A stretch of DNA of 41,788 nucleotides from Arenimonas sp. (lineage in GTDB: Bacteria > Pseudomonadota > Gammaproteobacteria > Xanthomonadales > Xanthomonadaceae): assembly GCA_026398695.1 (NCBI GenBank), contig JAPLSJ010000026.1:1-41788 (forward strand), read 5' to 3'. Positions 41,401 to 41,788 of this stretch are shown here, piece after piece. Each line of letters opens with the position of its first letter. Within the stretch, counting starts at the first letter, position 1. The position numbers and the translations under genes were made by a program. The notes beneath the pieces were generated by a model. It did no database searches. It saw nothing but the letters and a program-made list of their open reading frames with translations, and was not told the DNA's origin.

Positions 41401-41788
41401 CCGGGCCGGGGTTGAACACCTTGTCCTGGTCGCGCACCGACAGCCGCGCGTACAGCGGGATCACTTCCGTGGAGCGGTACTTGCGGCGGTTGAGCGCGGC
41501 GTGGGCGTCGCGGATCTCGCGTTCGCCGGGCAGGAAGACCAGCACGTCGCCCTGGGGGTCTTCGCGCGTGATCTCGTCGGCCGCCGCCACGATGGCCTCG
41601 GCCATCGACGGCGGAGATGGCGTACCAGGTACATTTTTCCGGGCGGGCTTCCGGCCACTGCCGCGTCCGTCTCCGGAAAAATGTACCTGGTACGTGGCTT
41701 CGGACGTGGCTTCGGACGAGGCTTCGGCCTCGTCGCCGGGGCGGTAGCGGACTTCGACGGGGAAGCTGCGGCCTTCGACGCTCAGCAC
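38429..41788 (-). CDS. hrpA: ATP-dependent RNA helicase HrpA, N-terminus outside window, with two in-frame palindromic inserts
   Basis: The last 1119 residues of a DEAH-box RNA helicase; motifs I-III lie beyond the right edge, so the first codon here is not the start. Visible motifs include [15 protein letters not shown] (motif IV), [19 protein letters not shown] (motif V) and [20 protein letters not shown] (motif VI). The HA2/OB region and the long HrpA-specific C-terminal DUF3418 region follow. Two stretches of about 31 residues, TYQVHFSG...[12 protein letters not shown], come from palindromic elements at 41605-41702 and 40498-40595. Both fall in presumed linkers, leaving the conserved blocks intact. 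Confidence 0.95.
   Translation of the reverse strand: [1119 protein letters not shown]
40498..40595. repeat. Palindromic element B inside hrpA
   Basis: Perfect 22-bp arms (40514-40535 and 40566-40587) surround a 30-base loop. Flanks GGCGGAGATGGC and GTGGCT are shared with element C, giving a 98-base unit. On the minus strand it is read in frame as TYQVHFSG, ten loop residues, then [12 protein letters not shown]. The arms carry the core TACCAGGTACATTTT also found in element A. Confidence 0.93.
41605..41702. repeat. Palindromic element C inside hrpA
   Basis: Perfect 22-bp arms (41621-41642 and 41673-41694), identical to those of element B, surround a 30-base loop that matches the loop of B at 20 of 30 positions. 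It encodes nearly the same peptide, in the same frame, in the linker before helicase motif IV. Confidence 0.93.

Follow-up and report, generated by a model that had tools for sequence, protein, structure and literature searches.

In-frame palindromes with differing arms share linker sites of HrpA, YoaA and IcmF in Arenimonas

Results

Palindromes read in frame within hrpA and yoaA

The stretch of DNA analyzed here, hereafter the window, spans 41,788 nucleotides of an Arenimonas genome (G000, about 89% complete) and ends inside an hrpA gene. It carries four strong palindromes, in and around the following features.

38429-41788, minus strand: hrpA, encoding the ATP-dependent RNA helicase HrpA (TIGR01967), with its 5' part beyond the contig end
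41621-41694, no strand assigned: type A palindromic element at hrpA site 1 (arms 41621-41642 and 41673-41694, loop 41643-41672)
41605-41709, no strand assigned: longer repeated stretch around site 1, repeated at 40498-40602, with flanks common to both hrpA copies
40514-40587, no strand assigned: second type A palindrome, at hrpA site 2, with 22-bp perfect arms
24802-26826, minus strand: yoaA, encoding the DNA repair helicase YoaA (NF053712, 846 bits, cut-off 680), host of the palindrome at 25666-25759
25666-25759, no strand assigned: in-frame palindrome of a sister type in yoaA, with GGGGTCAGAGCCC arms, 31 bp perfect
21910-22001, no strand assigned: type A palindrome between two convergent ORFs, with 30-bp perfect arms and the same core

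The hrpA ORF scores 1055 bits against TIGR01967 (cut-off 723) and encodes Helicase_C, HA2_N, HA2_C, OB_NTP_bind and DUF3418 domains; its reading frame is uninterrupted across both palindromes. The first-pass annotation of this DNA had reported an in-frame palindrome with 22-bp perfect arms in hrpA, and we confirm it: the site 1 element is 74 bp long, with perfect arms of that length around a 30-nt loop, in an open ORF. Both hrpA palindromes have the arm CGTACCAGGTACATTTTTCCGG in common and are translated as TYQVHFSG...RKNVPGT. In a repeat comparison of the window, 40498-40602 and 41605-41709 are 85% identical over 105 nt, and the 98-base unit delimited earlier corresponds to the palindrome together with flanks that are also present in the second hrpA copy. 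The palindrome in yoaA had gone unmentioned in the earlier finding, as had the turnover across species described below. Two weaker inverted repeats came out of the same palindrome scan of the window (7598-7658 and 14542-14575).

It had also been pointed out that the element is free of stop codons in all six frames. This is true but makes for weak evidence, as 824 of the 5956 98-mers of the window are equally stop-free; when the element itself is shuffled, by contrast, only 0.2% of 5000 sequences lack stops. The further suggestion that six-frame openness explains why genes tolerate the element is not supported: stop-free 98-mers are common in the window, and elements of another type (type B, arms GGGGTCAGGTTCACTTTT) are located in genes even though their right arm contains a TGA in one frame (judged by eye).

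Within the protein, site 1, which we take to lie between the two RecA domains, measures 70 residues in the window genome versus 38 in the palindrome-free G019, so the insert of 31 residues proposed at first is about right. In an alignment with E. coli HrpA (9ggr), site 1 of G019 falls on a short variable stretch, and the E. coli protein has 21 residues fewer at site 2. An AlphaFold model of the window HrpA (mean pLDDT 73, pTM 0.40) has pLDDT below 50 at residues 404-425, corresponding to insert 2, and also at residues 1-58, which include insert 1 but form the cut end of the protein. Both sites are located between conserved parts of HrpA.

Type A copies are dispersed in the genome of the window

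The arm core TACCAGGTACATTTT has 48 exact matches in the genome (23 + 25), compared with 0 + 0 for the reversed pattern used as a control; copies thus exist outside hrpA and the intergenic place at 21910, as expected from the first reading of the element as a repeat. These matches form 29 groups, 18 of which contain at least two exact cores (window plus 24 loci inspected). Three groups are in hrpA: the two window copies and a nearly identical hrpA fragment lying at one end of contig C88 (L022, G000:C88, 1-366), which is 98% identical to the window end over 122 HrpA residues. This overlap points to a mixture of strains. A crude codon-composition test places three of the remaining 26 groups within an ORF (L020, L024 and L031, their start codons left open) and the others outside ORFs. 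At L021 (3992-4090, G000:C68), three consecutive cores form one complete pair with an additional half element after it, and contigs end or fold back close to such palindromes at L036, L179 and L180.

Outside the genus, the exact 15-base core was found in none of the 280 other-genus genomes among a set of 297, and in none of 34 genomes of other genera. A scan of 84,980 named genomes, from which near relatives were perhaps excluded, returned two places. One is a contig of a Ramlibacter MAG (L049, 945-1008) that has, by eye, the same neighbourhood and type A palindrome as window positions 21910-22001. This contig is probably misbinned, and the presence of the palindrome in another assembly supports the view that the element is real. 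The other is a MAG of Vogelbacteria (G331), a distant CPR bacterium, with five exact TACCTGGTACATTTT cores, two of which (L048, 1760-1800) form a palindrome with 19-bp arms in the open frame of a Mur-ligase-like ORF (gene name assigned by eye).

Related species carry differently spelled palindromes at the same linkers

HrpA, YoaA and IcmF loci were scanned over their whole ORFs, with a score of at least 15 as the threshold for an in-gene palindrome (110 loci, 113,196 residues). The scan returned 50 in-ORF palindromes, made up of 41 distinct ones in the genus, six in other genera and three counted twice where loci overlap. All 50 are located at five linker sites, with none elsewhere in the residues scanned. 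The three genes were picked for having elements, so these counts are uninformative on the share of genes affected.

The HrpA query matched in all 27 genomes of the genus, with a weak, HrpB-like match in G003 and a fragment in G007. Palindromes are present in 11 of 25 genus loci (one per genome), nine at site 1 and ten at site 2, and the other 14 loci hold none scoring at least 15. Arm spelling differs by genome: type A in G000, GTACCAGGTTCATTTTTCCGG in G026, GGAACGGGGTCAGGTTCACTTTTCCGG in G004, GGGGACAGGTGCATTTTCCC at site 1 of G021, CAAAGAATAGGGGTCAGAGTACTATTTC at site 2 of G022, plus others. G002 and G010, relatives of G000, have no palindrome at site 2. One site 2 linker, that of L062 (G012), holds two palindromes in tandem, of GGGGTCAGACCCC and GGGGTCGGAGTCC types. 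YoaA carries palindromes in 12 of 28 loci (11 genomes), at a single site, and IcmF in 11 of 30 loci (9 genomes), at two sites; the genome of the window has no IcmF match. Contigs end with fold-back sequence at YoaA of G010 and G022 and at IcmF of G011, and an assembly gap lies beside YoaA of G011. In a FastTree tree of three concatenated proteins, G020 groups with G021 (1.00), G022 with G019 (0.80), those two with G011 (1.00), and G000 with G002 and G010 (1.00); deeper nodes are weak (0.27, 0.32).

The HrpA loci from other genera were the best 27 found in a search of 119 family genomes. Six of them carry a palindrome, every one at site 2, in five spellings, one of which is common to two loci; the remaining 21 hold none scoring at least 15. 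At site 1, the whole-ORF scan detected no palindrome with that score in any of the 27. It was used instead of a site 1 pattern search, which was unmatched in 5 of the 27 loci and landed on an incorrect segment in L134 and L141 at least. The first-pass annotation had reasoned that the same insert in HrpA of distant genera would mark it as an ancient protein segment, and at site 1 of these loci it was not seen. Apart from the shared position, nothing was found in favour of an old conserved HrpA segment, whereas sequence, length and presence all vary among related species and E. coli HrpA is without it. We rejected this candidate, whose probability is next to nil, on the ground that congeners either lack a palindrome at these linkers or have one with another spelling.

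Selection for strong mRNA hairpins between domains, acting through translation pausing or mRNA control, would account for the stability of the folds. The 98-mer folds as RNA at -51.1 kcal/mol (z -6.1), and the four strong window palindromes, folded as single strands, range from -51 to -73 kcal/mol; for each of these folds, not one of 200 shuffles did as well. The location of the HrpA sites between conserved protein parts would also fit, but such selection is hard to reconcile with the 14 genus and 21 other-genus HrpA loci that have no palindrome at the threshold, and with the apparently intergenic location of most type A copies. We regard it as improbable.

Arms are more alike within a genome than within a site

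Among 37 elements at four sites, arm similarity is 0.695 between different sites of the same genome (n = 35) versus 0.497 between different genomes at the same site (n = 155, permutation P = 1e-4). The YoaA arms of G010 and G022, where contig ends fold back, were trimmed by hand for this comparison. With IcmF site 2 included, similarity is 0.605 within genomes (n = 43) versus 0.494 within sites (n = 158), and among related species only, the contrast is small (0.693, n = 35, versus 0.622, n = 19). G022 and G011 have unlike spellings across different genes.

The two arms of an element differ at 34 of 928 positions, and 21 of 38 elements are perfect, in a set selected for symmetry by the scan itself. 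In addition, the palindrome at HrpA site 2 of G021 is intermediate in spelling relative to two others, and its two arms differ at one position. Both observations would be expected if fold-back template switching copied mutations from arm to arm and let near-perfect palindromes drift without a transposase. Template switching alone, however, accounts neither for the likeness of arms in different genes of one genome nor for their likeness to transposase ends, and we consider it unlikely.

Several arm spellings recur at the ends of Y1 transposase genes

We found 53 Y1_Tnp matches in 21 of the 27 genus genomes and inspected the flanks of 51, leaving out two of G009; some flanks are cut by contig ends. 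Many of these genes have inverted ends, and in several genomes the ends have the spelling of that genome's own in-gene elements. The ends of L081 in G021 match its HrpA site 1 and YoaA elements, those of L106 in G023 match its HrpA site 2 and IcmF site 1 elements, and those of L105 in G026, L107 in G016 and L233 in G012 match the IcmF site 2 spelling of the respective genome; L086 in G020 and L084 in G019 have type B ends, likewise the spelling of in-gene elements there. All ten repeat-flanked proteins tested, from sister types and other REP types, are Y1_Tnp proteins, and none of the ten has a Bac_DnaA_C match at E 0.01.

Over 35 elements from 13 genomes, similarity to the Y1 ends of the same genome is 0.590, compared with a null of 0.409 (P = 1e-4). 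The match is partial: the genome's own ends rank first for 11 of the 35 elements and do not for the other 24, which include both G000 hrpA copies (rank 9), the G000 YoaA element (rank 8) and four of the five G026 elements. Type A ends were found around none of the three Y1 matches of G000 (about 89% complete) and in none of the 51 sets of flanks across the genus; a lone type A arm lies some hundred bases beyond the ends of the genome's own type B Y1 gene L035. By eye, the ends nearest to the type A arm are those of the CCAGGT class (for example TGAACCAGGTTCATTTT), which belong to Y1 genes of G011, G020, G022 and G023. A separate REP type, TGTGGGAGGGACTTCAGTCCCGA, flanks another Y1 gene of the window's genome (L033, 1268-2000) and one in G016 (L107).

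Evidence for both re-insertion and renewal of arms

Differences in spelling could stem from independent insertions only, if few linkers tolerate an in-frame insert of 70-100 bp or the transposase prefers them, and if older copies are deleted. Some sites fit this account well. HrpA site 2 is longer in G000 (204 nt) than in G010 (141) and G002 (132), and its right flank in G000, CCATCTCCGCC, is that of site 1, which makes it probable that the element is a copy of the site 1 one, taken along with part of its flank. At HrpA site 1 of G020, a GGGGACAG remnant stands next to a type B element; at IcmF site 2, three different REP spellings occur within a few codons of each other; and the palindromes at HrpA site 2 in six of the 27 other-genus loci are different again.

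Other sites speak against insertions only. At IcmF site 1, a similar Lys/Gly core is found in most species regardless of arm spelling: the arms around it are of type B, G021 type or G023 type, or are decayed. The core also occurs in G002, G016 and G003, where no palindrome reaches a score of 15 at this site and which could hold decayed copies; it is missing in G008, G005 and G006. G004 has a single arm at this site, AAATCCGGGGTCAGAGTGCATTTATC, which is also found at the termini of the Y1 gene L083 in that genome. The YoaA elements of G011 and G019 have the outer arm AAGAAAGGGGGTCAG and most of the right flank in common, but the inner half of both arms differs (that of G011 has an assembly gap in its loop). 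Downstream of the gene that comes before the window element at 21910-22001, the sister species G020 and G021 carry unlike arms on either side of one and the same terminator hairpin; in G003 this hairpin lacks arms, and G010 is without an element where G000 has type A.

Such switches of arm spelling around a retained core, seen at several sites, suggest renewal in place. We give insertions alone a substantial chance, though one short of even. A farther-reaching version of renewal would have the resident Y1 transposase renew the two arms of palindromes already present while leaving the core in place, across the genome and also inside genes, so that orthologous linkers are respelled whenever the active transposase family switches. 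We put this forward tentatively and would sooner bet against it than for it.

Discussion

The reading that we favour, with a probability of roughly three in four, is that the element is a dimer of terminal inverted repeats (TIRs) and a non-autonomous passenger of Y1 transposases, whose in-frame linker copies persist while their arms are replaced by the spelling of the active family. Two REP- or TIR-like arms would surround a short core, and the small element would be moved by IS200-like Y1 transposases of the TIRYT/RAYT kind. Copies would spread across the genome, mainly into intergenic places; within genes, selection would keep only those in frame within flexible linkers, as in HrpA, YoaA and IcmF. 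Arms at these sites would gradually take on the spelling of whichever repeat family is active in the lineage, partly through re-insertion and partly through arm renewal around the retained core.

TIRYT transposases are flanked by TIRs with the consensus GGGGWSAS, and TIR dimers occur (Di Nocera et al. 2013, PMC3733652). For 20 of the 26 TIRYTs of that study, assignment to TnpAREP subclass 2.1 has been reported, along with variable C-termini (PMC6006769). A C-terminal DnaA-like helix-turn-helix domain is taken here as a mark of that subclass. The elements described here are reminiscent of this system in having dimers and inverted ends of Y1 genes, with sister spellings that start with GGGGTCAG or GGGGACAG, and the window element is itself an inverted-repeat dimer dispersed in the genome. 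The first-pass statement that no described family of this sequence was known in this bacterial group is not supported: GGGGTCAG, found in sister spellings at these sites, agrees with the GGGGWSAS of TIR repeats (PMC3733652). Type A differs in that its arm is without GGGGWSAS, a motif that many sister elements at the same sites have, and in that it flanks none of the 51 Y1 genes, whereas several sister types do. Since type A is without the motif and its sisters have it, we consider the window element a relative of the TIR repeats and not a member.

REPINs consist of GTAG-class REPs with their RAYT. The window element is like them in having two inverted arms that form a hairpin; REPINs are nevertheless another repeat class, and the type A arm contains no GTAG. 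As described, a REPIN is made of two inverted REPs and a spacer, is hairpin-forming, shows compensatory changes and is tied to a Y1 transposase, the elements of that account being extragenic (Bertels and Rainey 2011, PMC3116915); RAYTs are described in PMC2817692.

Palindromes read in frame within working genes are known from Rickettsia, as the Rickettsia palindromic elements or RPE (PMC3733652). The first-pass comparison with these holds as regards the reading frame, in other hosts and by description only. The QMITEs of Coxiella, small mobile repeats of which some are in frame in ORFs (PMC5896051), are likewise set apart as other families by their description. Within genes, the part of PMC3733652 available to us reports GTAG and CGTC REPs and not TIR repeats; such REPs or dimers encode 20-30 residues in known proteins, many of them products of replication or repair genes, and recB of two Xanthomonas species carries unlike REPs at nearly the same position. 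Both in-frame REPs and a case such as that of recB are therefore already published; in comparison, the present elements occupy five sites in three genes of many species, with a spelling tied to the genome. The available part of PMC11981726 reports no such in-gene inserts, and palindromes in HrpA, YoaA or IcmF are absent among the matches listed by our literature search, whose queries were mostly without these protein names. Within the literature searched, the shared in-frame sites with species-specific spelling, the wide turnover at these sites and the partial match to resident transposases seem to be new.

Orthologous in-frame sites provide fixed landmarks for comparing arms, core and flanks across species, which intergenic copies rarely do. 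It is an old question if REP-like repeats multiply by inserting themselves or change where they stand, by conversion. In one model of REPINs, insertion into a gene means that the gene is destroyed (PMC8049555), an assumption against which the in-gene copies described here speak. Our findings suggest that mobile DNA is renewed again and again inside working genes.
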